Positions 8,193 to 30,536 of a stretch of 41,571 bases of DNA are shown one piece after another (position 1 is the stretch's first letter; every line of letters starts with the position of its first letter). Origin of the DNA: Alphaproteobacteria bacterium (GTDB lineage Bacteria > Pseudomonadota > Alphaproteobacteria > Rhizobiales > Beijerinckiaceae); the NCBI GenBank assembly GCA_016869595.1, contig VGDT01000026.1, positions 1 through 41,571 on the forward strand, in the 5' to 3' direction. Under the pieces are notes generated by a model. The model was not told the DNA's origin, searched no databases, and saw only the letters and a list, made by a program, of their open reading frames with translations. A program made the position numbers and the translations under genes.

Positions 8193-9425
8193 ATGACTGG
8201 ATTGCAGGAGTGTAAAGGCCGCGAAAAGCTCGTCGTCGTCGGCGCAGGCATGGCCGCCACGCGTTTCGTCGAGGAACTGACAAACCTTGCGCCGGATCGT
8301 TACGACATCCTGGTGATCGGAGACGAACCGCGGCTTGCCTATAACCGCGTGCTGCTGTCCTCGGTGCTTGCCGGAGATTTGTCGCTCGACGATATTGAAC
8401 TCCAGCCCTCACATTGGTGGCGAGCCGCTAGCGTTCAGGTAATGAGCGGCTGCAAGGTTGTTGAGATTAACGCCGCGACGCGACGCCTTGTTCTCGATAG
8501 CGGCGAAACGATCGACTATTCGAAGCTCCTGCTCGCCACGGGTTCGCGCGCAATAAGACTGCCGATCGAAGGCGCCGATTTATGCGGCGTTCATGCGTTT
8601 CGTGACGTGCAGGACGTCGAGGCGCTGTCGCAGCTCGGGGGTAGGGCGAAGCGCGCGGTCGTTATCGGCGGCGGTCTTCTTGGACTTGAAGCGGCCTATG
8701 GCCTGGCGCGCCGCGGCGTCGACGTGACGCTGGCGCATGTCATGGACCGGCTGATGGAGCGCCAACTCGATGCGGCCGGCGCCGACATCCTGCGCCGCCT
8801 CGCCGAAGAGAAGGGCGTGCGGATTCTGCTCAACGCCAATACGACACGTATCGGCGGATCGGACCGAGTCGAAGAAGTTGAGTTCGCCGACGGCCGAACG
8901 ATTCCAGCCGACGCCGTAATATTCGCTGTCGGCATTCGACCCAACGCCGACCTCGCTAAAAACGCCGACATTTGCGTCGGACGCGGCGTGATTGTCGATG
9001 ATGGCCTCGAGACGAGCGCGCCCGGCGTCTTCGCCATTGGCGAATGCGCTGAACATGACGGCGTTTGTTATGGGCTCGTCGAGCCTGCCTATGAGCAGGC
9101 CCGCGTCCTCGCCGCAAGGCTTGCCGGACAGGACGCCTCCTATTGCGGCAGCGTTGTCTCCACCAATCTCAAGGTCTCTGGCGTGCGCGTTTTCTCGGCC
9201 GGCGATTATCTCGGCGAAGGCGATGCGCGTCGCATCGTCTGCCAGGACCCGCGCATGGGAATTTACCGCAAGCTCGTCATTCGTGACGACAGGCTCGTGG
9301 GCGCGATCCTTATCGGAGATACGAACGGCGCGGCCGATCTCCTCGATCTCATCCGTTCAGGCGCGGACGTTTCGTCCATGTGCGACGAACTGATGTTCGG
9401 ACCGCCGATGCAAGAGGCCGCCTGA
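8193..9425 (+). CDS. FAD-dependent NAD(P)H oxidoreductase of nitrate/nitrite assimilation
   Basis: 410 residues with the FAD/NAD-disulfide-oxidoreductase-like fold: FAD-binding VVVGAGMAATRFVEEL near residue 14, ATGSRAIRLP near 120, NAD(P)-binding VVIGGGLLGLEAAYGL near 155, and second FAD motif GVFAIGECAEH near 277. It resembles the N-terminal reductase domain of NirB and the electron-transfer subunit of bacterial nitrate reductase (NasB/NasC type). It lacks the siroheme domain, so it should pass electrons from NAD(P)H to NasA or NirA. First gene after the sigma-54 leader; one base separates its stop from the nirA start. Confidence 0.85.
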   Translation: MTGLQECKGREKLVVVGAGMAATRFVEELTNLAPDRYDILVIGDEPRLAYNRVLLSSVLAGDLSLDDIELQPSHWWRAASVQVMSGCKVVEINAATRRLVLDSGETIDYSKLLLATGSRAIRLPIEGADLCGVHAFRDVQDVEALSQLGGRAKRAVVIGGGLLGLEAAYGLARRGVDVTLAHVMDRLMERQLDAAGADILRRLAEEKGVRILLNANTTRIGGSDRVEEVEFADGRTIPADAVIFAVGIRPNADLAKNADICVGRGVIVDDGLETSAPGVFAIGECAEHDGVCYGLVEPAYEQARVLAARLAGQDASYCGSVVSTNLKVSGVRVFSAGDYLGEGDARRIVCQDPRMGIYRKLVIRDDRLVGAILIGDTNGAADLLDLIRSGADVSSMCDELMFGPPMQEAA

Positions 9426-9426
9426 A

Positions 9427-11181
9427 ATGTCCGTCGATTTCACGCTCGATCAGAAGCGCTATCTCGAAGGATTTGCCGCCGGCTTCTCCGCGCGCGGCGG
9501 ACAAAACGCGCCGCCCGCGCAAGCGCAGCCGATGGGGCCCGACGCCGCGCATATTTCAGCGCAGGATCGCGTTACAGCCGCAGGCGGCAAGCTGGCCGAT
9601 CAGGAAAAATGGAAGCGCGAGGAGCATCCCTTCGACGCCTGGCCGCGCCTTGTCGCTCAAGCCAAGGAGAATGCGCCGCCAAAGCCCGCCGACAATTTCC
9701 GCTGGCGATACTACGGCCTCTTCTACGTTGCGCCTGCGCAGGATGCCTATATGTGCCGCCTGCGCATTCCCAATGGCGCGCTCAATCATTGGCAGTTCGC
9801 CGGCCTTGCTGATCTCGCGCAAATTTACGGCGGCGGCTATCTCCATGTGACGACGCGCGCCAATATCCAGATCCGCGAGGTCGAGCCGAAAAACGCCACG
9901 AATATTATCGAGGCGATTCAGGACCTCGGTCTGTGGAGCAAGGGCTCTGGCGCCGACAATATCCGCAACATCACCGGCACGCCGACCGCAGGCGTCGATC
10001 CGCAGGAACTCATCGACACGCGCCCCTATGCGCGCGCCATGCATCATCACATCCTGAACGATCGCTCGCTTTATGGCCTGCCGCGCAAATTCAATATCGC
10101 CTTCGACGGCGCGGGATTGATCGGCGCGCTGGAAGACACGAATGACATCGGCTTTCAGGCGGTCGCGATAGAGGACGGCCGCGGCGTCGCGCCGGGCGTT
10201 TATTTCCGCCTCGCGCTCGGCGGCATCACCGGTCATAAGGATTTCGCGCGCGATACGGGCGTGGTTGTGCCGCCGGACGAAGCGGTCGAGGTCGCCGACA
10301 AAGTTCTGCGCGTCTTCATCGAACATGGCGACCGCGCCAACCGCGCCAAGGCGCGGCTCAAATATGTGCTCGACGCCTGGGGTTTCGACAAATTCATCGC
10401 CGCCGTCGAAGAAAGGCTGGGACGCAAACTGCTTCGCGTCGCGGCCGACGCGATCGCTGTGCGCCCGCGTCAGGATCGCGCCGCCCATATCGGCGTCCAT
10501 CCGCAGAAGCAGGCGGGCTTCAATTGGATCGGCGTTGCGCTGCCGGTCGGCCGTTTCACCCCCGAGCAGGCGCGCGGTCTCTCCGAGATCGCGCGCCAAT
10601 TCGGCGACGGCGGCCTGCGTCTCACCGTTTGGCAGAATGTGCTGATCACCGGCGTCGCCAATGAGCATGTCGGCGAAGCCGTGGCGATGATCTCGGCGCT
10701 CGGCCTTTCGACGCAGGCGTCGCCTATTCGCGCCGGTCTCGTCGCCTGCACGGGGAATTTCGGCTGCCGTTTCGCCGCCGCCGACACCAAAAGGCATGCC
10801 GAAGAAATCGCCGCCTATTGCGAGACTGAAACGCCGATCGATACGCCAATCAATATTCATCTTACCGGCTGCCATCACTCATGTGCGCAGCATTACATCG
10901 GCGATATCGGGCTGATCGGCGCGCGCGTGCCGATCAATGATGATGGCGATACGGTCGAGGGCTATCACATTCTCGTCGGCGGCGGTTTTGCGGGAGACGC
11001 CCGCATCGGCTCCGAGTTTTATCAAAATGTGAAGGCGGAGGAGGCGCCGGAAATGGTGGCGCGAATTCTTCGCGCCTATCGAACGAACCGCGCGAGCGCA
11101 GACGAAACCTTCGTCGACTTCGCACGCCGTCATGACATTGAGACGCTGCATCGTCTCGCCAATGAGGAGAGCACGGCGTGA
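9427..11181 (+). CDS. nirA: NirA, assimilatory siroheme nitrite reductase
   Basis: Reduces nitrite to ammonium in the cytoplasm using a siroheme coupled to a [4Fe-4S] cluster. The 584-residue product shows two repeats of the nitrite/sulfite-reductase half-domain. The cluster ligands are CTGNFGC near residues 441-447 and CHHSC near 482-486 (TGCHHSCAQHYIGDIGLIG). The substrate-side segment VTTRANIQIREVEPKN is also present. The N-terminus (LDQKRYLEGFAAGFSARG) precedes the catalytic fold and has a counterpart at the start of the next gene product. It overlaps that gene by GTGA. Confidence 0.92.
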   Translation: MSVDFTLDQKRYLEGFAAGFSARGGQNAPPAQAQPMGPDAAHISAQDRVTAAGGKLADQEKWKREEHPFDAWPRLVAQAKENAPPKPADNFRWRYYGLFYVAPAQDAYMCRLRIPNGALNHWQFAGLADLAQIYGGGYLHVTTRANIQIREVEPKNATNIIEAIQDLGLWSKGSGADNIRNITGTPTAGVDPQELIDTRPYARAMHHHILNDRSLYGLPRKFNIAFDGAGLIGALEDTNDIGFQAVAIEDGRGVAPGVYFRLALGGITGHKDFARDTGVVVPPDEAVEVADKVLRVFIEHGDRANRAKARLKYVLDAWGFDKFIAAVEERLGRKLLRVAADAIAVRPRQDRAAHIGVHPQKQAGFNWIGVALPVGRFTPEQARGLSEIARQFGDGGLRLTVWQNVLITGVANEHVGEAVAMISALGLSTQASPIRAGLVACTGNFGCRFAAADTKRHAEEIAAYCETETPIDTPINIHLTGCHHSCAQHYIGDIGLIGARVPINDDGDTVEGYHILVGGGFAGDARIGSEFYQNVKAEEAPEMVARILRAYRTNRASADETFVDFARRHDIETLHRLANEESTA

Positions 11182-12770
11182 CTCATTTGCCCTCTCCGCC
11201 TTTTCTCATCCCGCCGAGCGCGCCTTTCACACCCGAGCAGCGCGCCTGGCTCAGCGGCTTCTTTGCCGGATTCGCCGCCCCTGATGACGGCTCCGTCACG
11301 CCGCTTTCGCCTGAAGACAACGCCGCCGTCTTGGCCGGCACTCCAGTCGAAGGCGACGATGGCGAAGCGCCCTGGCATGACCAGACGCTGGCGCTCGACG
11401 CGCGCATGCAGCTTGCGCAAGGACGGCCGCTGCGCCGTCGCATGATGGCGGCCATGGCGCAGCAGGACTGCGGCCAGTGCGGCTATAATTGCGAGACCTA
11501 TGCGGACGCGGTCGCTGCGAAGAAGGAGACACGCCTCAATCTTTGCGCGCCCGGCGGGAAGGACACGGCCCGCATGCTGAAAGCGCTTGCGACGGAGCTG
11601 GATGAGGCCCCGCCAGCGCCAGCTCTCATCACACAAGCTAAGCCTAGCGTTCCGACGTCTGGCGCCTCGCGCGACAACCCGGCCTGCGCGACTTTCGTTT
11701 CGCGCCGGCGGCTCAACAAGGAAGGCTCGGAGAAAGACACCTGGCACATAGAATTCGACATCGCCGCAAGCGAGCTGAGCTATCAGGTTGGCGACAGCTT
11801 CGGCGTATTTCCTAAAAATGATCTCGGCCTCGTCGACCAGATCATCGCCATGCTCGGCGCCTCGCATGTGACGCCCGTACGCGACAAGACTCTGCGCGAC
11901 GTCTTGCTGAGCGACGTTTCGCTATCTCTGGCGCCCGATGCGCTTTTCGAGCTGATCTCCTTCATCACGGGCGGCGCGCATCGCGAGAAGGCGCGTTTGC
12001 TCGCGCAGGGCGAGGACCCGGATGGCGACGCGGCGACGCTCGACGTCCTTGCCGTATTGCAGAAATTTCCTAGCGCCCGGCCCCACCCGGAAGCTTTTGT
12101 CGAAGCGCTGGACCCTCTTCAGCCACGTCTTTATTCCATCTCCTCGTCCCCAAAGGCGACGCCGGGACGCTTGTCGCTGACCGTCGACGCAGTTCGCTAT
12201 GTCGTCGGCAAACGCAAACGTCTCGGCGTCGCCTCAACCTTTCTCGCCGAGCGCATTGCGCCGGGCGACAGTCTTCCGGTTTATGTGCAGTCGGCGCACG
12301 GTTTCGCCCTGCCGGACAATTCTGCAACGCCGATCATCATGGTCGGACCCGGAACCGGCGTCGCGCCGTTTCGCGCCTTTCTGCAGGAGCGCGCGGCGAC
12401 GCACGCAACAGGCAAGACCTGGCTCTTCTTTGGTCATCAACGCTCCGCCTGTGATTTCTTCTACGCCGACGAATTCGAAACGATGAAGGCGACAGGTCTG
12501 CTCACCCGCCTTTCGCTCGCCTGGTCGCGCGACGGCGCGGAGAAATTCTATGTGCAGGACCGGATGCGCCAAACCGGCCGCGAACTCTGGGCATGGCTGG
12601 CGGAGGGCGCGCATTTCTATGTCTGCGGCGATGCGCAGCGCATGGCCAAGGATGTCGAGCGCGCGCTTGTCGATGTGGTCGCCGAATTTGGCGCGCGCAG
12701 CGCCGATGAAGCGGTCGCCTTTGTCGCCCAGCTCAAAAAGAGCGGGCGCTATCAACAGGACGTCTATTGA
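11178..12770 (+). CDS. CysJ-like flavoprotein with N-terminal [4Fe-4S] domain, likely nitrite reductase electron donor
   Basis: 530 residues; the GTG start overlaps the nirA stop. After a short N-terminal WLSGFFAGFAA element, residues 98-123 show C-x2-C-x3-C-x17-C followed by APGG, the pattern of the RnfB/CdhE-type [4Fe-4S] domain. From about residue 165 on comes a CysJ-type FAD domain (RLYSISSSP) and an NADPH domain (GPGTGVAPFRAFLQERAA, YVCGDAQRM), ending QQDVY as in CysJ. The FMN flavodoxin domain of true CysJ is missing; the FeS domain stands in its place. Databases usually label such proteins 'sulfite reductase subunit alpha', but the operon points to nitrite. Confidence 0.85.
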   Translation: MTHLPSPPFLIPPSAPFTPEQRAWLSGFFAGFAAPDDGSVTPLSPEDNAAVLAGTPVEGDDGEAPWHDQTLALDARMQLAQGRPLRRRMMAAMAQQDCGQCGYNCETYADAVAAKKETRLNLCAPGGKDTARMLKALATELDEAPPAPALITQAKPSVPTSGASRDNPACATFVSRRRLNKEGSEKDTWHIEFDIAASELSYQVGDSFGVFPKNDLGLVDQIIAMLGASHVTPVRDKTLRDVLLSDVSLSLAPDALFELISFITGGAHREKARLLAQGEDPDGDAATLDVLAVLQKFPSARPHPEAFVEALDPLQPRLYSISSSPKATPGRLSLTVDAVRYVVGKRKRLGVASTFLAERIAPGDSLPVYVQSAHGFALPDNSATPIIMVGPGTGVAPFRAFLQERAATHATGKTWLFFGHQRSACDFFYADEFETMKATGLLTRLSLAWSRDGAEKFYVQDRMRQTGRELWAWLAEGAHFYVCGDAQRMAKDVERALVDVVAEFGARSADEAVAFVAQLKKSGRYQQDVY

Positions 12771-12778
12771 GGCCGCTC

Positions 12779-15526
12779 ATGCTCGACGGAGTCGTGGCGC
12801 CCGCGCCGCATGAAAATCTGCAAGCGCCAGCCGCGTCCAGTCAGACGACTGCGACACGCTCCACCTGCCCTTATTGTGGCGTGGGTTGCGGCGTGCTCGC
12901 CTCGCCTAGCGGCAAGCATATCAGCGGCGATCCAGCCCATCCGGCAAATTTTGGCAGGCTCTGCTCTAAAGGCTCGGCGCTTGAGGAAACGCTCGGACTT
13001 GAGGGTCGCCTTCTTCATCCGATGCGTCGTCAGGCAGACGGCGCATTGGCGCGGTTGAGCTGGGATGCGGCGCTCGATGAAGTCGCAGCGGGCTTTCGCC
13101 GTATCGTCGACCAGCATGGTCCCGACGCCGTCGCGGTCTACCTCTCGGGGCAGTTGCTGACCGAGGATTATTACGTCGCCAACAAGCTGCTGAAAGGCTT
13201 TATCGGCTCAGCGAACGTCGACACCAATTCGCGCCTGTGCATGGCCTCGACGGTCGCCGGCCACAAGCGCGCATTCGGGGCCGACGTCGTGCCCGGTTGT
13301 TACGAAGACCTGGACGAAGCTGACCTCATCGTGCTGGTCGGCTCAAACGCGGCCTGGTGTCATCCGGTTCTGTTTCAACGCATCATGCGCAACAAGGAGG
13401 AGCGCGGCGCCAAGCTCGTCGTCATCGACACGCGGCGCACAGCGACGGCGGAGAGCGCCGATCTCTTCTTGCAGATCGCCCCTGGCGCCGACCAGGCGCT
13501 GTTTTGTGGTCTGCTGGCTTATCTCGCCAAATTCGCCGCACTCGACGCTGCCTACATTAAGCAATACACGTCCGGATTCGAGAACGCTTTGGCGGAAGCG
13601 CGGCGCATCGCGCCGACGATCGAAGCCATCGCGATGGCGACCGGACTGCGCGAGATCGATATTGCTTCCTTCTTCGAATTGTTCGTGCGGACGCCGCGGA
13701 CGGTCACGGCATTCTCGCAGGGCGTCAATCAGTCGGCGCAGGGGACCGATAAGGTCAACGCCATCATCAATTGCCATCTCGCGACAGGCCGTATCGGCAA
13801 ACCAGGCGCATCGCCTTTTTCGCTGACCGGCCAGCCCAACGCGATGGGCGGCCGCGAAGTCGGCGGACTTGCAAACAGCCTTGCCGCTCATATGGGTTTT
13901 GATCCCAGTAGCGTCGATCGCGTTCGCCGCTTCTGGAATGCGCCGCGCATCGCGACGCGTGACGGATTGAAGGCGGTGCAGATGTTCGACGCCATTGCGC
14001 GTGGCGACATCAAGGCGCTGTGGGTCGTCGGAACAAATCCGGCGGCGTCTCTTCCGAATGCCGGCATGGCGCGCGCTGCGCTCAGCAAGCTCGAACTCTT
14101 CATTGTATCCGACAATGTGACGTCGAACGACACCATCAACAGCGGCGCGCATCTGCTTCTGCCGGCGCAGGCATGGGGCGAAAAGACCGGCACGGTGACG
14201 AATTCGGAGCGCCGCATTTCTCGTCAGCGCGCTTTTTTGCCTGCGCCGGGAGAGACTCGCGCCGACTGGGCGATCTTCGCCGATGTGGCTCAACGAATGG
14301 GTTTTGCGGGTTTCGACTACCGCTCGGCTGCCCAAGTCTTTCGCGAACACGCCGCACTTTCGGCTTTCGAGAATGATGGAACGCGCGCTTTCGACATTGG
14401 CGGACTGGCGCGGCTGAGCGACGCTGAATATGACGGGCTTGAGCCGACGCAGTGGCCGCGCCGCACGTGCGACGTTAAAGGCCGCGCGCGTCTCTTCGCC
14501 CAAGGCGGCTTTTTCTCTCAAGATGGACGAGCGACATTCGTCGCGCCAGCGACGCCTGCCTTGGCCACAAGGTTGACCGAAGACTTCTCGCTTCGGCTCA
14601 ACACCGGCCGCATACGCGATCAATGGCACACGATGACGCGCACCGGCGCGAGCCCCCGCCTCGCGCGACATCTTCCCGAACCCTTCGTAGAGATCAATCC
14701 GTCAGACGCAGCGCGTTTTTGCGTAGAAGATGGCGGATTCGCCCGTGTCGCGACGCCCTATGGCAATTGCGTCTTGCGCGCGGTCGTAACCGATCGTCAG
14801 CCTGCTGGACATATCTTCGCGCCGATCCACTGGACCAATGAAACCGCGGCCGACGCGCGCGTTGGCGCACTTGCCGCCTCATGTGTCGACCCGGTCTCCG
14901 GACAGCCGGAATTAAAGGCGACGCCAGCCGCCGTCTCGCCCTTTCGCTTTGCGCGTCAGGGCTTCATCCTCTCCCGTAAGCCGACGGCTCTGCCCAAAAG
15001 CGTGTGGTGGACGCGGGTCGCAATCGCCAAGGGGTACGGCTATCGGGTCGCCGCCAATCTGCAAGATGACGATTGGGCCGATATCATCAGCGCCGCTACG
15101 GTCAGCGAAGACATTGTCCAGTTGATCGACGAAACGAAGAGCGTTTTCTCCGGCGCCGCCTTCGTCGAGGATCACGCGACGCTCATCTGGTCTCTGTCTC
15201 CCCTTTCGCCGCCCTGGGAGCTGGCCATCGAACTCTTTGCCCGCGAACGTCTGGATGATTCAGAGCGACTGTCGTTCTTATCCGGGCGCTCGGGCGGACA
15301 ATCAACCAACGCGGGTCCGCTCGTCTGTTCCTGCTTCAGCGTCGGGCAAAAGCAAATCGAAACTGCGATTCAGCAGGGATGTCGCTCCGCATCGGACGTC
15401 GGCAAGGCCACGCGCGCAGGCTCCAATTGTGGTTCATGCCGGCCAGAAATCGAACGCCTCATCAAGACCGCTCTCACCGCCGCGTCTGCGACAGGATCTG
15501 CAGCGCCTCTACAACACCCAGCATGA
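12779..15526 (+). CDS. nasA: NasA, assimilatory nitrate reductase catalytic subunit with C-terminal BFD-like FeS domain
   Basis: Molybdenum bis-MGD enzyme reducing nitrate to nitrite in the cytoplasm. The N-terminal [4Fe-4S] ligands are in CPYCGVGC (about residues 30-37) and RLCSKG (about 62). NSRLCMAST holds the likely Mo-ligand Cys; ATGRIGKPGASPFSLTGQPN and NPAASLPNA are typical pterin-binding segments. The last 50 residues add a bacterioferritin-associated-ferredoxin-like [2Fe-2S] domain (VCSCFSVG and GSNCGSCRPEI). A TTG at 12767 overlaps the previous stop, but the ATG at 12779 with GAGG eight bases earlier is the better start. No Tat signal, as expected for the assimilatory type. Confidence 0.92.
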   Translation: MLDGVVAPAPHENLQAPAASSQTTATRSTCPYCGVGCGVLASPSGKHISGDPAHPANFGRLCSKGSALEETLGLEGRLLHPMRRQADGALARLSWDAALDEVAAGFRRIVDQHGPDAVAVYLSGQLLTEDYYVANKLLKGFIGSANVDTNSRLCMASTVAGHKRAFGADVVPGCYEDLDEADLIVLVGSNAAWCHPVLFQRIMRNKEERGAKLVVIDTRRTATAESADLFLQIAPGADQALFCGLLAYLAKFAALDAAYIKQYTSGFENALAEARRIAPTIEAIAMATGLREIDIASFFELFVRTPRTVTAFSQGVNQSAQGTDKVNAIINCHLATGRIGKPGASPFSLTGQPNAMGGREVGGLANSLAAHMGFDPSSVDRVRRFWNAPRIATRDGLKAVQMFDAIARGDIKALWVVGTNPAASLPNAGMARAALSKLELFIVSDNVTSNDTINSGAHLLLPAQAWGEKTGTVTNSERRISRQRAFLPAPGETRADWAIFADVAQRMGFAGFDYRSAAQVFREHAALSAFENDGTRAFDIGGLARLSDAEYDGLEPTQWPRRTCDVKGRARLFAQGGFFSQDGRATFVAPATPALATRLTEDFSLRLNTGRIRDQWHTMTRTGASPRLARHLPEPFVEINPSDAARFCVEDGGFARVATPYGNCVLRAVVTDRQPAGHIFAPIHWTNETAADARVGALAASCVDPVSGQPELKATPAAVSPFRFARQGFILSRKPTALPKSVWWTRVAIAKGYGYRVAANLQDDDWADIISAATVSEDIVQLIDETKSVFSGAAFVEDHATLIWSLSPLSPPWELAIELFARERLDDSERLSFLSGRSGGQSTNAGPLVCSCFSVGQKQIETAIQQGCRSASDVGKATRAGSNCGSCRPEIERLIKTALTAASATGSAAPLQHPA

Positions 15527-15541
15527 AAAAAGGAGCATCGG

Positions 15542-16804
15542 ATGAATCTCTCTGATTTTAGGAAGGCGGGTCATTGGCCGACGCTGCTTTCGGCCTTCCT
15601 CTATTTTGACATCAGCTTCATGGCTTGGGTCTCACTCGGCCCGTTGATGATTTACATCACCAAGGGCATGCCGATTTCCATCGAGGACAAACTTTCGCTT
15701 GTGGCCATTCCGGTTCTCGGCGGCGCATTCTTTCGCGTTCCGCTTGGCCTTCTCTCTGACGCTATCGGCCCAAAGATGACGGGCGTCGCCGCGCAGGTGA
15801 TCGTAATGTTCGCCGTGTCTTTGGTGTGTGTCTTTGGCCTCAGTAGCCCGATCGCCATCGCGCTGTTCGGCTTATCGCTCGGACTTGCGGGAGCTTCCTT
15901 CGCCGTCGCCTTGCCGCAGGCGGGCCGCTGGTATCCGCCGCAATATCAGGGTCTGGTGATGGGCATTGCGGGCGCCGGCAATATGGGCGTCGTGCTCGAC
16001 ACGCTGTTTGCGCCGTCGATCGCCGAGGCTTACGGCTGGCGAACGGTCTATGGCGTGCTGCTCGCACTGATGGTCTTGGTGCTTCTCGTCTATGCATTGG
16101 CCGCCAAGGACGCGCCCGGCGCCAAAACGAAGATCGACCTTACAGGCTACGGAAGAATGCTCGCCGACTCGGACAGCCGTTGGTTCATGTTCTTCTACTT
16201 CATCACCTTCGGCGGCTTTGTCGGCCTCGCCTCCGCGCTGCCCCTCTATTTCACGACACAATATCACGCGACGGGAGTCGCCGCGGGCCTTATGGTTGCG
16301 CTGATCGTCGCCTTCGGCTCCGGTTTCAGACCGGTCGGCGGCTTTATCGCGGACCGTATCGGCGGCGTAAAAACGTTATCGTTCCTCTTCCTCATCGTCT
16401 CGGCCTGCTATTTCGCCGTCGCCTTTCTGCCGGCCGGACCCGCGCCAGCGAAGGGCGTCGCGGGATGGGGCCTGATGCAATTGCCGCCCGTCGCATTTGC
16501 AGCAGTCGCGTTATTCTCCGTTGGCGTGCTATCGCTCGGCATGGGCAATGGCGCGGTGTTTCAGCTGCTGCCGCAGCGCTTCCGCCGGGAGATCGGGGCG
16601 ATGACAGGGTTGGTCGGCGCCGCGGGTGGTCTAGGCGGATTTTTCCTGGCCAAGGCTCTCGCGTTTTCGAAAGGAGCGACGGGCGGCTTCACGGCGGGCT
16701 TCACCTTCTTCGGTTTCCTGGCGCTGCTCGGTCTCGTAGGTCTGATCTTCGTTAAGACGCGCTGGCGCACGACCTGGGGCGCGGTTTCCGGCGCGCGGAT
16801 CTGA
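15542..16804 (+). CDS. Nitrate/nitrite MFS transporter (NNP family, NarK/NasA type)
   Basis: 420 residues with twelve likely transmembrane helices. Family features include the N-terminal TLLSAFLYFDISFMAWVSLG, the glycine-rich helix GLSLGLAGASFAVALPQ, the WYPPQYQGLVMGIAGAGNMG signature and the second-half GNGAVFQLLPQRF. Imports nitrate, possibly also exchanging nitrite. The ATG follows AAAAAAGGAGCATCGG, a good ribosome-binding site, 15 bases after nasA, so it is part of the same operon. It lies upstream of the phosphatase/kinase fusion. Confidence 0.92.
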   Translation: MNLSDFRKAGHWPTLLSAFLYFDISFMAWVSLGPLMIYITKGMPISIEDKLSLVAIPVLGGAFFRVPLGLLSDAIGPKMTGVAAQVIVMFAVSLVCVFGLSSPIAIALFGLSLGLAGASFAVALPQAGRWYPPQYQGLVMGIAGAGNMGVVLDTLFAPSIAEAYGWRTVYGVLLALMVLVLLVYALAAKDAPGAKTKIDLTGYGRMLADSDSRWFMFFYFITFGGFVGLASALPLYFTTQYHATGVAAGLMVALIVAFGSGFRPVGGFIADRIGGVKTLSFLFLIVSACYFAVAFLPAGPAPAKGVAGWGLMQLPPVAFAAVALFSVGVLSLGMGNGAVFQLLPQRFRREIGAMTGLVGAAGGLGGFFLAKALAFSKGATGGFTAGFTFFGFLALLGLVGLIFVKTRWRTTWGAVSGARI

Positions 16805-16815
16805 GTTGAGAAGCG

Positions 16816-18522
16816 GTGTCGGTTCGCGGCGTTCATGATCTTCGAATCGAAGCGGGCTTCGCGACCGAGAAGGGCCGACGGCCGGACAATCAGGACTATG
16901 TCGCATATTGCTTCGGTCCGGGCGGCGCCGGCGCCTTACAGGGCGTCGTCGCCGCCGTTGCTGACGGCGTCGGCGGCCACAAGGGCGGGCGCGCGGCGGC
17001 TGAGACAGCCGTCCGCGCGTTTATCGACGGCTACTATGCGCAGCCGGAGACCTTGGGCGTCGCTCGGGCCGCCGCCCGTTCGCTCGAAGCGGCCAACAGC
17101 TGGATCGCGGCGCAGGCAAGAGTCGATCCTGCTTTGGAAGGAATGGCGACAACGTTCAGCGCGCTGATTCTGTCCCGTCGTAACGCCTTCATTCTCCATA
17201 TTGGCGATAGCCGCGCGTACCGGCTCGCTGGCGATAGCCTCGAAAGACTGACGAAAGACCATGTCTTGGGCCGCGGCGATTTCGCCCATGTGCTCCTTCG
17301 CGCGGTGGGTCTCGAGGATGCGCTTTTGTTCGATCAGGGGATGCATAGTCTCAATCTGCATGATCGATTTCTACTGTGTTCGGATGGCGTTCATGGCGTC
17401 ACGACGGACGCTAAGCTTCACGCGCTTCTTGCCGAAAGGCGCGCGCCCCAGGAAACATCGGAAAGGATCGTTCAGGCCGCGCTCGAGATGGGCAGCAACG
17501 ACAATGTCACGGCGCTCGTCGTCGACGTCATTGATGTGCCGCCAGCTGATGAGCACGCTTTGTCGCGCGCTTTTGCCGCCCTGCCAATCCGCGAGCTGCC
17601 AGCCGTCGGGACTCTTGTCGACGACTTTCAGATCGAAGCCGTTCTCTCCGAAGGGCGGTACAGCCGGCTGATGCAGGCGACGGACACACAGAACGGCAGA
17701 GCCGTCGTATTGAAATTTCCGCATCCGCGTGTCGCAGATGACGCAGCCTACCGACTGGCGTTCGTCAACGAGGCATGGGTTGCAGCGCGGGTGAGAAGTC
17801 CATTTGTGGGCGAAGTCATAGAACTGCTTCCGGGCCGGCAGACGCGGCTCTATTCCGTGATGCCATATTATGAAGGCGAGACGCTGGAGCATCGGCTGCG
17901 GCGCGAACCGCGCATCGATCTTGCCGAGGGCGTTTCAATCGCCACACGCTTGTCGCGCGCGCTCGTGACGTTGCATCGCTGTGGCGTCATCCACCGCGAC
18001 ATTAAACCGGAGAATGTGATTCTATCGAAGGATGGCGGACTGCGGCTCGTCGATCTCGGCGTCTGCCGTGCGCCGAACCTTGAAAATCTGCCGCAAGCGA
18101 ATGCGCCTGGCACGCCGAGCTATATGGCCCCCGAGCTTTTTGATGGCGGTATCGGCGACGAAGCGTCCGATCTTTATGCATTCGGAGTCACCATCTATCG
18201 AATGTTCAGCCGCTGCTATCCATACGGCGAAATCGAGCCATTCAGCAGACCGCGCTTCGGAAAGCCCGCGCCGCTTTCCCTCAAGCGGCCCGACCTCCCC
18301 GCATGGCTCGACGCGGCCATTCTCAAAGCGATCGCCGTTAAGCGCGACGAGCGCTATAACGACGTGTTGGAATTCGCCTTCGAGCTCGAAAACGGCTCGG
18401 CGCGGGCGCAGCCGCTAACGCTGCGCAAAAAGTCTCTTTACGAACGCAATCCCCTTATTTTTTGGCAGGTGCTCTGTTTGCTGCTCGCGCTCCTACTGAC
18501 AGTTTCCGTTTTTCATAGGTAG
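16816..18522 (+). CDS. PP2C-type phosphatase fused to a Ser/Thr protein kinase, C-terminal membrane anchor
   Basis: 568 residues, GTG start 11 bases after the transporter stop. Residues about 1-235 are a PP2C phosphatase (RRPDNQDYVAY, VADGVGGHKGG, HIGDSRAYRL, GSNDNVTALVVD). Residues about 265-540 are a Hanks-type kinase: Lys in VVLKFPHPR, catalytic loop HRDIKPENV, DLG in place of DFG (RLVDLGVCR), and APE in YMAPELFD. The C-terminus is one hydrophobic helix (FWQVLCLLLALLLTVSVF). Such fusions recur next to nitrate transport genes in proteobacteria. A role in setting uptake activity is inference; the target is unknown. Confidence 0.9.
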   Translation: MSVRGVHDLRIEAGFATEKGRRPDNQDYVAYCFGPGGAGALQGVVAAVADGVGGHKGGRAAAETAVRAFIDGYYAQPETLGVARAAARSLEAANSWIAAQARVDPALEGMATTFSALILSRRNAFILHIGDSRAYRLAGDSLERLTKDHVLGRGDFAHVLLRAVGLEDALLFDQGMHSLNLHDRFLLCSDGVHGVTTDAKLHALLAERRAPQETSERIVQAALEMGSNDNVTALVVDVIDVPPADEHALSRAFAALPIRELPAVGTLVDDFQIEAVLSEGRYSRLMQATDTQNGRAVVLKFPHPRVADDAAYRLAFVNEAWVAARVRSPFVGEVIELLPGRQTRLYSVMPYYEGETLEHRLRREPRIDLAEGVSIATRLSRALVTLHRCGVIHRDIKPENVILSKDGGLRLVDLGVCRAPNLENLPQANAPGTPSYMAPELFDGGIGDEASDLYAFGVTIYRMFSRCYPYGEIEPFSRPRFGKPAPLSLKRPDLPAWLDAAILKAIAVKRDERYNDVLEFAFELENGSARAQPLTLRKKSLYERNPLIFWQVLCLLLALLLTVSVFHR

Positions 18523-23993: not shown

Positions 23994-24021
23994 GCCGCGG
24001 GCTTTAATCGATCCCCGCGGC
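23994..24021 (-). promoter_or_regulatory. Hairpin between precursor and cyclodehydratase genes
   Basis: GCCGCGGG and CCCGCGGC form a perfect 8-bp stem with a 12-base loop, 40 bases after the precursor stop. No T run follows on the minus strand, so it looks like an RNA-stabilising element or a leaky stop that keeps precursor mRNA in excess over enzyme mRNA, rather than a full terminator. Confidence 0.45.
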
Positions 24022-24061
24022 ATAAGCCTGTCTCACTGCAAAAGTGCTAGAACTGAAGGCC

Positions 24062-24436
24062 TCAGGCGCCGCAGCCCCTGCAACCTCTGCAGCCGCGGCA
24101 ACCGCGGCAACCGCGACAACCCCTGCAGCCGCATCCCCGACAGCCTCGACAACCCCATCCCCATCCCCATCCCCACCAGGCGACGGTTTCAGGTTTGGCT
24201 GTCTCCACATCCTCACGGTCGAACAGACGGAAGGAGCTGAGGCCGACGTCGAAAACTTCCTGTTCATGGATATCGACGTCCATGAAGCGCATATTGCTGG
24301 TCGCCGGTTCGGTCGCGGCTTCTGCCGGGGTGCTCTCGATGTAGGCGCCGCCTGCGAGCGAGAGAGACACGCCGATGACGCCAAGCGCCTTCTTGCCTCG
24401 ATGTGGGTCTTGAGAGTGGTCCGATGAACGCGCCAT
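24062..24436 (-). CDS. Linear azol(in)e-containing peptide precursor with Trp-Gly and Cys-Arg-Gly repeat core
   Basis: 124 residues; ATG at 24436 follows GGGAGGG at 7-base spacing. Three parts are visible. Residues 1-45 are basic, then hydrophobic (KKALGVIGVSLSLAGGAYI), ending PAEAATEP, like a signal peptide. Residues 46-86 are an acidic leader-like segment (DVDIHEQEVFDVGLSSFRLF). Residues 87-124 are the core: Trp-Trp, four Trp-Gly steps, then CRG-CRG-CG, six more CRG units, and CGA. The core has ten Cys, eight Arg and four or more Trp, and no Ser or Thr. It fits substrates of the YcaO and SagB enzymes downstream. I recall Gly/Cys-rich relatives with a similar DVSL...FD leader in rhizobia but cannot verify this. 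Confidence 0.9.
   Translation of the reverse strand: MARSSDHSQDPHRGKKALGVIGVSLSLAGGAYIESTPAEAATEPATSNMRFMDVDIHEQEVFDVGLSSFRLFDREDVETAKPETVAWWGWGWGWGCRGCRGCGCRGCRGCRGCRGCRGCRGCGA
24065..24178 (-). repeat. Repeat-coded core peptide region
   Basis: The plus strand shows the tandem hexamer ccccat (24153-24170, three full copies plus a partial) coding for Trp-Gly, then a 9-bp-periodic stretch for Cys-Arg-Gly down to 24065. The Arg codons are varied (CGA, CGG, AGG, CGC, AGA) and so are the Gly codons, so the periodicity is kept at protein rather than DNA level. Confidence 0.88.
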
Positions 24437-24482: not shown

Positions 24483-24510
24483 AGTGTAGCACTCGACTCT
24501 ACGTCGTCAA
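24483..24510 (-). promoter_or_regulatory. Sigma-70-type promoter of the azole-peptide operon
   Basis: On the minus strand TTGACG (24510-24505) and TACACT (24488-24483) are 16 bases apart. The predicted leader to the ATG at 24436 is about 40 bases. It lies in the 123-base gap after the carbamoyltransferase gene, so the precursor probably has its own promoter. Confidence 0.55.
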
Positions 24511-24559: not shown

Positions 24560-26239
24560 TCACCTTTCCGACGTCACGCAAATATCGCCCAAGAAAACGG
24601 CGTCAAGACCGGCTCCGTGAAAGGTCGCCACGGCGTCAGCGGGGCTGCAGACGATCGGCTCGTTGTCGTTGAAGGAAGTGTTGAGCACGAGCGGCACGCC
24701 GGTGCGCTCGAAAAAACGCGAGATCAGGGCGTGATAACGTGGATTCGCGGCGCGCCGCACGATCTGGACGCGCGCGGTCCCGTCCTCATGGATGACGGCG
24801 GGAATGCGCGCCGCGCAACCAGGCTTTGTCGGGCAGGCGAAGAGCATGAATTCGTGACTTCGCGACCGCGGGCCAAGGTCGAACCAATCTTCTGCATGTT
24901 CTGCGAGGACGCTCGGCGCGAAAGGCCGAAAGTCCTCGCGGTGCTTTACCCTCTGATTGAGGATGGCGCGCGTATCCGGCCTGCGCGGATCGGCCAGCAG
25001 CGAACGATTGCCCAGAGCGCGCGGCCCGAACTCCATCCGCCCCTGAAACCAGCCGACAATATTGCCGTCGGCGATCATCTCCGCGGCCTCCCGGGGCGCA
25101 TCCTTGCATTTGCGGGGTTTCAGCCCGGCGGCGCGGACGGCCGCTAGCGCCTCGCGCTCATCATATTCGGGGCCGAGATAGGGCGTTGCGCCCCCCGTCG
25201 GGCGCTTCGCGCCGCGTTCCGCGCAATGCGCGACAAGCGCCGCGCCAATCGCCGTTCCGGCGTCATGCGGCGCGGAAGGAATAAAGATGTCGCTGAAGGC
25301 GCTCGCCCGCGCGATCCGCGCATTGGTGACGCAGTTCAGAGCGACGCCGCCGGCAAGACATAAGGCGCCGCCGCCCGCTTCCCGTTCGAGACGGCGTAGG
25401 AGCGAAAGCGCCGCAAGGTCGGTCGCGTCCTGAAGCGCGGCCGCGACATTCATGTGATGCGGCAGAAAATCGCCGTCGGGCGCCCGCCTCGGTCCAAAGA
25501 GTTCGTCGAGGCCGCGCGGTTCGATTGATTTGAATCCGATCGTCTCAGGGTCTACCGCGTAGCCCTGCTCTGTAACTTCAATGATCGACGCGAACTCCCG
25601 CCGGAAGACGTTCGGGTCGCCGTAGGCGGCAAGCCCCATGACTTTTGCGGCGTCGTAAGCCGAGAAGCCGAGATAGACGCTCGTGTGCTCCCAAACGAAG
25701 CCGAGAGAATGCGGATAGGAGAGGCTTGCAAGGACGTTGATATGATTGCCTTCGGCGCGCGCCAGCATCGTGCAATCGGCCTCGCCGATTCCGTCGATCA
25801 CCAATATGGCGGCTTTGTCGAAGCCTGAAGGATAATAGGCGGAGGCGGCGTGCGCGAGGTGATGGGGCACGAATTTGAGCGCCTTGCCGAAGCGGCGGCC
25901 CATTAGTTTAGATACGGCGTCGTCAACCTCGTCTAGACAACGCAGAAACACCTCTTCGAGACCGCTCTCAGGCCACCATTCGGGTCGAAATTTGGCGCGG
26001 CGCAGCCGCGGCTCGAAAGAATAGGCGACGATATCGATATCGTCAGGCCGCAGGCCCGCGTAATCGAGACAAAACCGCACCGCCTGTTCGGGCAACACAT
26101 GCGGATTGTCGACTTGCGCCTCTTTGGCGTGTTTGATGCGCGAGAAGCGTTCTTCCTCGCATGCCGCGACGACCTTGCCGTCTACTACAAGCGCCGCTGA
26201 CGATTCATGAAAGACAGAATTGATCCCGAGAATATTCAT
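24560..26239 (-). CDS. NodU/CmcH-family O-carbamoyltransferase
   Basis: Transfers a carbamoyl group from carbamoyl phosphate to a hydroxyl, via carbamoyl-adenylate, on sugars or natural products. The 559-residue product is full length: N-terminal ILGINSVFHESSAALVVDGK and EEERFSRIKH, metal-site His in PHHLAHAASAYYPSGF, GGVALNCVTN in the kinase-like fold, and the C-terminal YrdC-like domain with QGRMEFGPRALGNRSLLADP and VLNTSFNDNEPIV. The substrate is unknown. The gene lies just upstream of the azole-peptide precursor in the same direction, but a separate promoter lies between. It could tailor the peptide, or act on a glycan given the sugar genes beside it. Confidence 0.88.
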   Translation of the reverse strand: MNILGINSVFHESSAALVVDGKVVAACEEERFSRIKHAKEAQVDNPHVLPEQAVRFCLDYAGLRPDDIDIVAYSFEPRLRRAKFRPEWWPESGLEEVFLRCLDEVDDAVSKLMGRRFGKALKFVPHHLAHAASAYYPSGFDKAAILVIDGIGEADCTMLARAEGNHINVLASLSYPHSLGFVWEHTSVYLGFSAYDAAKVMGLAAYGDPNVFRREFASIIEVTEQGYAVDPETIGFKSIEPRGLDELFGPRRAPDGDFLPHHMNVAAALQDATDLAALSLLRRLEREAGGGALCLAGGVALNCVTNARIARASAFSDIFIPSAPHDAGTAIGAALVAHCAERGAKRPTGGATPYLGPEYDEREALAAVRAAGLKPRKCKDAPREAAEMIADGNIVGWFQGRMEFGPRALGNRSLLADPRRPDTRAILNQRVKHREDFRPFAPSVLAEHAEDWFDLGPRSRSHEFMLFACPTKPGCAARIPAVIHEDGTARVQIVRRAANPRYHALISRFFERTGVPLVLNTSFNDNEPIVCSPADAVATFHGAGLDAVFLGDICVTSER

Positions 26240-28531: not shown

Positions 28532-28763
28532 CGCGACCCAGTCGCAGCGCTCTCTCATTCGGACCGAATGGCTCAACATCAAAAGCATACCCGATTCTTG
28601 GCGCTGCGAACCAAACTCGGCCAAGCGTCGCATTCCAGCGGCAACCGGCCCTTCTTTTCGGTGCAGTCGAGTTTATTGTTGTCGCCAACGCCGCCGCCGC
28701 GCATGTTTGGTCAAACACACTTCGTGACTCGGCGATTTATTGATTTCCACGAGGGCGCCGCCA

Positions 28764-30536
28764 ATGAATGAACAAAAAGAGCGAGAGAAACAGAAAGTCG
28801 GCGACGCGACAATCATGGAGCCAGGACTCATTTCACAGTTCCGTGCGATGGCGCATGTGCTGCTTGTCTCGCCTCAGCGAAGCGCAATTGTCTGGCTGGC
28901 TCTCGGATTGGTCGTCGTCGTCGGCGCGACAGCCTATGCGCAGATCGAACTAAATGCCTGGAACCAGCCATTTTACGACGCAATCAACCGCAAGGACCTT
29001 TCTGGGGTCGGGCGGCAGCTGGGCGTCTACGGCATCATCGCTGGCGCTCTGCTGGTCCTGAACGTCGCCCAAGCCTGGCTGAACCAAATGATGAAGCTGA
29101 AGCTTCGCGAAGGACTAACGCGCGATCTTTTCGCCCACTGGCTCGCGCCCAAGCGCGCCTTCATGCTCTCCAGCGCGGGAGAAATAGGCGTCAATCCCGA
29201 TCAGCGCATTCACGAAGACGCGCGACACTTAACAGAACTGTCGACCGATCTCGGCATCGGCCTGTTTCAGGCGCTGCTGCTTTTCGTCAGCTTCGCGGGC
29301 GTGCTCTGGACTCTGTCGGAGAATGTGATCCTTCCGTTCGACGGAAAGGACGTCGTCATTCCCGGTTACATGTTCTGGAGCGCGCTTCTGTACGCGGGAA
29401 TCGCTTCGCTGATCAGTTGGCGCGTCGGCCGTCCCCTCGTCAGGATCAACGCGGAACGCTACGCACGCGAATCCGATCTTCGCTTCGCGCTTGTCGACGT
29501 TAATGAGCACAGCGAAGCCATTGCGGTTTATCGCGGCGAAGCCAGGGAAGAAGCCAAGTTGCAAAGCGAGTTCGAACGGCTCCTTGCTGTCGTGAGAAAG
29601 CTCGTCAGCGCGACGACTCGCCTCACTTGGGTCACGGCCGGCTATGGATGGTTCACGATCATTGCGCCGATTCTCGTCGCAACTCCCGCATATTTTGGAG
29701 GAAACCTCACTTTCGGCGGATTGCTGATGGCGGCGGGCGCCTTCACGCAGGTCCAACAATCGCTGCGGTGGTTCGTCGACAACGCCGGTCCGATCGCGGA
29801 CTGGCAAGCGACGCTGACCCGCGTCGCCGCCTTTCGGGAGGCGCTGCTAGACATGGACAGGGTCCAAAGCGGGATCGGACGCATCGCGCTTGAAAGCGTC
29901 GCCGAGGAAACGCTGGTCCTCGACAACGTGAAAGTTCTTTCCCCAGCGGGCGCCAGCGTTCTGAGCGAAGCCCATGTCGACATTGCGCCGGGGCAACATG
30001 TGCTGATCGCCGGCGCGCCGGGATGTGGGAAGACCAGCCTGTTTCGTGCGCTTGCCGGCGTCTGGCCCTGGGGCGCCGGGCAAATCAGCCTCCCGCTGGG
30101 TTCGATCAGCTATGTGCCCAAGCGTCCCTACATTCCCGATGGTTCGCTGCGCGACGCGCTCGGCTACCCCGATCCATCGTCGAAATATTCGAATCAGGAG
30201 TTCATTTCGGCGCTTGAGCAGCTTGGTTTGACGCAGCTTGTTCCCTCTCTCGACGTGGTGGCGCGTTGGGATCACGAGCTGACAGCGCCCGAGCAGCAGG
30301 CGCTCGCCTTCGCAAGGCTCTTTCTTCATAAGCCGCGGTGGGTGATCGTCGACGCCGCTCTCGAAACGCTCGCGCCAGACGCGAGGCGGACATTTATGGC
30401 CAATTTCCAAAAGGAACTGCCGGATTCGGCATTGATCTCGATCAGTGACGTTTCTGCGATGGGCGACTTTTTCCGGCGTGTCGTGAACCTCAAGCTGGAT
30501 GTATCTGGTCAGCGGCTTGCTCGACCTATCTGCTAA
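28764..30536 (+). CDS. SbmA/BacA/YddA-like ABC transporter with degenerate ATPase domain
   Basis: Inner-membrane protein with an SbmA/BacA-like membrane domain (LNAWNQPFYDAINRKDL, LNQMMKLKLREGLTRDLFAH, NPDQRIHEDARHLTELSTDL) and a C-terminal nucleotide-binding domain. Start ATG 28764 follows GAGGGCGCCGCCA. Walker A is intact (GAPGCGKTS), but the signature reads LTAPEQQALAFAR instead of LSGGEQQ, Walker B ends WVIVDAAL with Ala where the catalytic Glu belongs, and the switch His is absent (ISISDVSAM). Relatives take up antimicrobial peptides, bleomycin, or vitamin B12. The direction here is unknown. It lies 4.3 kb from the azole-peptide precursor. Confidence 0.85.
   Translation: MNEQKEREKQKVGDATIMEPGLISQFRAMAHVLLVSPQRSAIVWLALGLVVVVGATAYAQIELNAWNQPFYDAINRKDLSGVGRQLGVYGIIAGALLVLNVAQAWLNQMMKLKLREGLTRDLFAHWLAPKRAFMLSSAGEIGVNPDQRIHEDARHLTELSTDLGIGLFQALLLFVSFAGVLWTLSENVILPFDGKDVVIPGYMFWSALLYAGIASLISWRVGRPLVRINAERYARESDLRFALVDVNEHSEAIAVYRGEAREEAKLQSEFERLLAVVRKLVSATTRLTWVTAGYGWFTIIAPILVATPAYFGGNLTFGGLLMAAGAFTQVQQSLRWFVDNAGPIADWQATLTRVAAFREALLDMDRVQSGIGRIALESVAEETLVLDNVKVLSPAGASVLSEAHVDIAPGQHVLIAGAPGCGKTSLFRALAGVWPWGAGQISLPLGSISYVPKRPYIPDGSLRDALGYPDPSSKYSNQEFISALEQLGLTQLVPSLDVVARWDHELTAPEQQALAFARLFLHKPRWVIVDAALETLAPDARRTFMANFQKELPDSALISISDVSAMGDFFRRVVNLKLDVSGQRLARPIC

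Follow-up and report, generated by a model that had tools for sequence, protein, structure and literature searches.

Cys-Arg-Gly repeats were reported in a putative thiazole-bacteriocin precursor of Bradyrhizobium japonicum (Lee et al., as cited in the accessible text of Haft 2009, PMC2674419). The same text describes the cores of heterocycloanthracins, which vary by whole Cys-Xaa-Xaa units. As far as the consulted part of the literature describes them, heterocycloanthracin systems combine a truncated fused enzyme with a separate ocin-ThiF protein, while phazolicin, a rhizobium azole peptide whose positively charged core has both Ser and Cys, comes from the cluster phzEACBD with its own exporter PhzE. 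Bufferins are Cys-rich RiPPs with a signal peptide on the precursor, made by an MNIO enzyme with other chemistry; according to the accessible text of an MNIO survey (PMC12452194), Sec signal peptides are rare in RiPPs and export has been shown experimentally only for bufferins. Words starting with Methylo, Rhizobi or Bradyrhizobium do not occur in the accessible main text of Cox 2015 (PMC4603692), and in the accessible part of a 2025 survey (PMC11964084) LAP-type clusters are more frequent in Methylocystaceae than in two further families of methanotrophs. Haft 2009 aside, no title or abstract start among the literature matches listed, which cover subscription journals thinly, concerns the family described below.

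The window analysed here, 41,571 nucleotides of contig VGDT01000026.1 (Beijerinckiaceae, assembly GCA_016869595.1), carries an azole-RiPP cluster of a kind glimpsed before as the Cys-Arg-Gly precursor of a soil rhizobium. Traits that look new are the association of cyanobactin-type enzymes with a CRG core, the signal-like leader, and a partner gene, amidase or VOC-fold, that changes with lineage. What was one sentence in 2009 now stands as a delimited family that shares a leader motif and falls into two lineages with alternative partner genes. We know of no characterised product of this family, nor of any product of the B. japonicum precursor. Both precursors have Cys-Arg-Gly repeats and are predicted azole precursors (PMC2674419, accessible text), and the B. 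japonicum leader probably belongs to the same family as that of the window. The features of the cluster are collected in Table 1.

Table 1. Features of the precursor locus in the window
Feature	Position	Strand	Remarks
Amidase-signature enzyme, twin-arginine (Tat-like) N-terminus, 549 aa	18550..20199	minus	9 bases after sagB
SagB-type FMN dehydrogenase, 474 aa	20209..21633	minus	TIGR03605; CyaGox is the closest solved relative
YcaO cyclodehydratase, fused type, 750 aa	21636..23888	minus	winged-helix/RRE-like N-terminus, TIGR03882 part, YcaO part
Precursor peptide gene	24062..24436	minus	ATG start, 124 aa
Predicted core, residues 87-124	24065..24178	minus	Trp-Gly head and CRG repeat
Recognition-type motif, residues 56-75, IHEQEVFDVGLSSFRLFDRE	24212..24271	minus	conserved
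Signal-peptide-like N-terminus, residues 1-41	24314..24436	minus	basic RGKK, uncharged hydrophobic ALGVIGVSLSLAGGAYI, then AEA
Promoter-like site, TTGACG-16-TACACT	24483..24510	minus	5' of precursor; consensus match only
Carbamoyltransferase (NodU-like)	24560..26239	minus	upstream of precursor; possible accessory

The gene order is precursor, YcaO, SagB and then amidase, with the three downstream genes on the same strand and almost abutting one another. Fifty loci including the window were compared, of which 48 are distinct (L075 and L086 are copies of L012 and L014). Both enzyme genes lie beside the precursor in 46/48 distinct loci, a recurrence that supports the original prediction of an azole-peptide precursor. 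The exceptions are L111, a locus near a contig end with no YcaO found, and L019 (9325-9867), an orphan precursor in whose vicinity no modification genes were found and whose genome (G171) has a full cluster at L020. The window YcaO protein matches TIGR03604, TIGR03882 and PF02624. Its residues 18-746 align to LynD 7-771 (3.8e-139) and residues 17-746 to TruD (3.2e-137), in both cases with the N-terminal domain included. The winged helix of this domain is weak in Pfam, with an E-value of 0.005 in the window protein (below the cut-off), and 3.5e-5 (above it) and 2.3e-4 in two relatives. SagB scores 175 bits against TIGR03605 (cut-off 78), and its residues 120-471 align to CyaGox at 1.9e-59. The YcaO is the only one found in its 98.9%-complete assembly and the SagB is the genome's only match above the family cut-off. 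YcaO proteins end in P-x-x-P-x-T or -S in 46/46 rows, two of them copies; a 47th row, outside this count, is the front piece of a gene that occupies two ORFs at L018 (10535-12695), either a broken gene or an assembly error.

These closest matches are cyanobactin-type heterocyclases and a cyanobactin-type oxidase, not heterocycloanthracin-type enzymes. The likeness to heterocycloanthracins lies in a Cys-Xaa-Xaa repeat core varying by whole units. The window has one full-length fused enzyme, and TIGR03693 (ocin-ThiF) matched none of the eight window proteins scanned, the four cluster genes included; at E 0.1 the precursor itself had no match in Pfam or in NCBIfam, whose library is assumed to include the heterocycloanthracin precursor family TIGR03601. 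By eye, the L-x-E-E/Q-E motif of the window leader loosely resembles the LAELSEE of cyanobactin leaders. The window precursor differs from cyanobactin precursors, however, in its long Cys-repeat core without repeated core cassettes. PatA/PatG-type proteases are absent among the same eight proteins, while the neighbours of relatives are partly identified.

The last 38 residues of the 124-residue precursor, WWGWGWGWGCRGCRGCGCRGCRGCRGCRGCRGCRGCGA, contain five Trp, ten Cys and eight Arg, with no Ser or Thr. The Cys and Arg counts and the lack of Ser and Thr are as first described; the strictness of the CRG rhythm was slightly overstated, for the repeat comprises eight CRG units, is interrupted by a single CG at the third Cys and closes with CGA. 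The Trp-rich head also needs qualification, being present in the window core but long only in close kin and missing from many relatives. In the closest relative the core is shorter by one Trp-Gly and one CRG unit, and across 55 precursors neighbouring Cys are most often separated by two residues (356/679 gaps). Among 11,888 ORF fragments of 41-399 aa, taken from part of the window and the neighbourhoods of relatives' loci rather than genome-wide, 51 are precursors and 15 of these have (CxG)5. No non-precursor fragment has it, so the (CxG)5 core is beyond chance.

The core is spelled with five Arg, three Gly and two Cys codons. It differs from four same-genus relatives by 8, 12, 17 and 17 synonymous and by 0, 3, 3 and 4 non-synonymous codons, and codon position 3 accounts for 10/12, 41/63, 42/61 and 58/97 of the base changes over the whole precursor gene. 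Because the codons are mixed, the core differences mostly synonymous and the changes concentrated at codon position 3, the core is no DNA-repeat artefact. As judged from these substitutions, the CRG repeat is conserved as protein rather than as DNA, and the precursor ORF is real with leader and core both under protein-level selection. Two other ORFs overlap it, one on the plus strand (24044-24427) and one in a second minus frame (24004-24384). From the coordinates, position 3 of the 124-aa frame is position 1 of the plus-strand ORF, and the third-position bias therefore favours the 124-aa frame. Promoter-like sites of the kind listed in Table 1 number 4 in 8.5 kb versus 1.8 expected.

The leader motif L-x-[ED]-[EQ]-E-x-x-D-[VI]-x-L-x-[TS]-F-x-[LV]-F-D-x-E is common, with few exceptions, to the 55 unique precursors, a set that leaves out L068, which has no start. 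Glu at -3 of the motif is present in 55/55, in a count anchored on the D/G-V/I-x-L-x-x-F part, which every family match contained. The set includes 22 closely alike precursors of the amidase-lineage type, near-identical precursors being tallied separately. Ahead of the motif lies a segment resembling a signal peptide. It was scored with a home-made rule, not SignalP, that looks for basic residues and then a hydrophobic run free of charges, optionally with AxA nearby. The pattern occurs in 54/55 precursors, the exception being L093, whose start was placed too late by the script, and comes with a nearby AxA in 47/55. The window precursor has the hydrophobic run but falls outside the strict AxA count, its AEA being preceded by glutamate. 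Shuffled precursor starts yield the pattern in a mean of 9.7 and a maximum of 17 of 55. Among control ORFs, whose mechanically set starts may be wrong, it is found in YcaO 0/47, VOC 1/20, carbamoyltransferases 1/10, SagB 8/46 (2 of these with AxA) and other Met-start ORFs of at least 200 aa 37/168 (19 with AxA). The corresponding figures are 10/10 for TonB-dependent receptors (one Pfam-checked) and 14/16 for amidases. Such a segment ahead of the recognition motif looks new. Searches of the PDB returned one weak match to the precursor profile, a small secreted protein (E 0.1). A leader piece of 28 residues drew a calmodulin match attributable to chance (E 8.7) and gave no confirmation of the cyanobactin-like motif.

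Precursors were found in 33/397 genomes of the family-level sample, in 18/198 of another family of the same order (that of G352) and, in the class-wide sample, in 1/289, the window's own. These samples overlap and every count takes in the genome of the window or of G352. At order level 10/397 genomes were matched by the precursor or the family profile, four of them judged chance: the weak matches L007-L010 (G058, G323, G281, G217) were dropped after inspection of their ORFs, and L021, a region of G058, was left out of the analysis. The family profile finds a precursor in 24/39 of the genomes listed for the window's genus, presumably the methane-oxidising Methylocystis, the window's own included, and several of the 15 others are incomplete assemblies. 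In the plasmid collection, searched in protein mode, the precursor had no match. Uncharacterised relatives in rhizobia had been anticipated, and this held: they occur in the other family of the order and, according to the accessible text of Haft 2009 (PMC2674419), in Bradyrhizobium. The core tail C-x-S-W/R-G-x-C distinguishes 27/33 precursors outside the amidase lineage from 0/22 within it. L063, L065 and L071 represent a second precursor type with the same leader, a short CG-rich core and a Cys-free tail rich in Lys, His and Arg; L071 lies in locus L112 beside a second, standard precursor.

The gene next to the modification enzymes varies. The amidase is present in 17/48 distinct loci and a VOC-fold (glyoxalase/bleomycin-resistance) gene adjoins in 23/48, both in none. 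All 23 VOC genes are antiparallel to the precursor. Twin-arginine motifs stand near the start in the 16/16 amidases whose starts were read (e.g. TRRDLLLEAG), a count outside which falls the seventeenth (L089), found by tblastn only. Amidase and VOC loci are split by a branch supported 100/100 in a tree of 45 YcaO proteins, which excludes L018, with its YcaO in two pieces, and L019 and L111, with none found. The partner gene thus appears to divide by lineage, amidase or VOC but never both, an arrangement that looks new. L092 (G592), a same-genus locus of VOC type, is placed in the VOC clade, which suggests horizontal transfer, with the partner gene following the cluster and not the host genus. 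Eight of the 48 loci have neither gene adjoining (L012, L014, L019, L076, L077, L098, L104, L111); at L098 a partial VOC gene is found about 5 kb away, and L104, like L111, lies near a contig end. As L012, L014, L076 and L077 belong to the amidase lineage, the amidase is not essential.

Beyond the enzymes and the lineage partner, no gene group is found in more than 10/50 loci, with groups defined as ORFs of at least 90 aa with more than 30% identity, a definition that small or divergent partners can escape. Carbamoyltransferase genes lie near the cluster in 10/48 distinct loci, one on the other strand. Genes for dnaG and a TonB-dependent receptor occur together in the same 10/50 loci (9 distinct), all of the amidase lineage, the receptor gene separating dnaG from the precursor cluster (at 2525-4948 in L012, and similarly in nine others); the receptor is either a chromosomal neighbour or an uptake partner. 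A single representative of each of ten gene groups was scanned with Pfam, and one of the ten, a 213-aa ORF, had no match. Further groups are a histidine kinase/response regulator, an epimerase, a glycosyltransferase, a Uma2 protein and a sigma factor. ABC or MFS exporters are absent among the Pfam-identified groups present in at least 5 loci, a comparison that would miss exporters with genes elsewhere or of too divergent sequence. Two candidate partners were rejected, a BacA-like ABC gene (near the cluster in 4/50 loci, 3 distinct) and a GH3 gene (3/50, 2 distinct). In the window, a BacA/SbmA-like transporter fused to an ABC domain is encoded at 28740-30536, 2.5 kb past the carbamoyltransferase.

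Our preferred reading, to which we assign a probability of roughly 0.7 as a whole, is that the segment 18550-24436 directs an azole RiPP that leaves the cytoplasm by its own signal, undergoes an amidase step in the periplasm and serves in competition. The RRE-like N-terminal domain of YcaO would bind the leader motif (L-x-E-x-E..D-V-x-L-x-x-F), and the enzyme, with ATP, would turn core Cys into thiazolines that SagB would convert to thiazoles. That the cysteines become thiazol(in)es is very likely; the product could have up to ten rings along with eight Arg and a Trp-rich head. The N-terminal signal-like segment would then lead the modified peptide out of the cytoplasm, and the twin-arginine amidase, itself exported, may perform late tailoring or trimming in the periplasm. 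The likely, still putative, role of the product is competition with other bacteria. A drawback of own-signal export is that the leader would have to stay masked until the enzymes have done their work. The wider proposal, that the azole RiPPs of Methylocystis and its kin have a true signal peptide, exit by Sec and are finished in the periplasm (by the amidase in Methylocystis) with no dedicated exporter, is put forward tentatively, at slightly less than an even chance. If true, it would provide an azole-peptide example of YcaO chemistry combined with Sec export, and these peptides would be made for, or pass through, the envelope without a dedicated pump. The family offers in this respect an export idea open to testing and a compact four-gene system for study in methanotrophs.

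The main rival to own-signal export is cytoplasmic trimming by TldD/E, in which the leader would be removed inside the cell, a general transporter would export the peptide and the hydrophobic N-terminus would be a membrane-docking or enzyme-binding helix. The window genome has two TldD/E-family matches, on another contig, fit for such a removal, but TldD/E is common (10/14 control genomes) and no proof alone. In microcin B17, TldD/E leaves 13 residues ahead of the first ring (accessible text of PMC10885120); the same trimming here would leave residues 83-95, ETVAWWGWGWGWG, and keep the Trp-Gly head. The BacA/SbmA-like protein of the window could serve as the transporter, yet such a gene is near the cluster in few loci, and the basic start, uncharged stretch and nearby AxA of most precursors form the pattern of exported proteins. 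We regard cytoplasmic maturation as unlikely on balance. Lower still we place a periplasmic or secreted peptide for metal or redox handling, bufferin-like with azoles and perhaps some thiols, and perhaps taken up again by a TonB-dependent receptor. Bufferins, known signal-peptide-bearing Cys-rich RiPPs, chelate copper (accessible text of PMC12452194), methanotrophs need copper (accessible text of PMC9601215), and in its ten loci the gene for the TonB-dependent receptor is located some 3 kb upstream. In all ten, however, dnaG accompanies that receptor on the same side, suggesting a single chromosomal site, and the receptor is absent from the grouped neighbours of the window locus and of the VOC lineage; moreover, bufferin enzymes are MNIO and not YcaO, and the family is found outside the window's genus too.

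The partner genes invite another explanation, that the VOC protein confers self-immunity by sequestering the thiazole peptide while the Methylocystis amidase instead inactivates the product once it is outside the cytoplasm. A precedent is the sequestration of a bithiazole drug by bleomycin-resistance proteins. PF00903 is above cut-off in 3/3 VOC proteins scanned and Ble-like_N in 1/3, and the mutual exclusion of the two genes, with their distribution on two sides of the YcaO-tree branch, fits such a role. The split may however reflect nothing more than descent, since a single change on the tree would account for it; the VOC proteins are very diverse, with Rv0577 as the closest solved one, and eight loci, some at contig ends, have neither gene adjoining. 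We regard immunity by these partners as unlikely on balance. Very improbable is an unmodified Gly/Cys/Arg-rich structural or metal-binding protein encoded by chance beside YcaO and SagB: the sequence is of low complexity, as such a protein would have it, but both enzymes accompany nearly all distinct loci and the leader motif is almost invariant.

The window also encodes at 16816-18522 a PP2C phosphatase-protein kinase fusion that adjoins apparent nitrate/nitrite assimilation genes (8193-16804, from Pfam matches).
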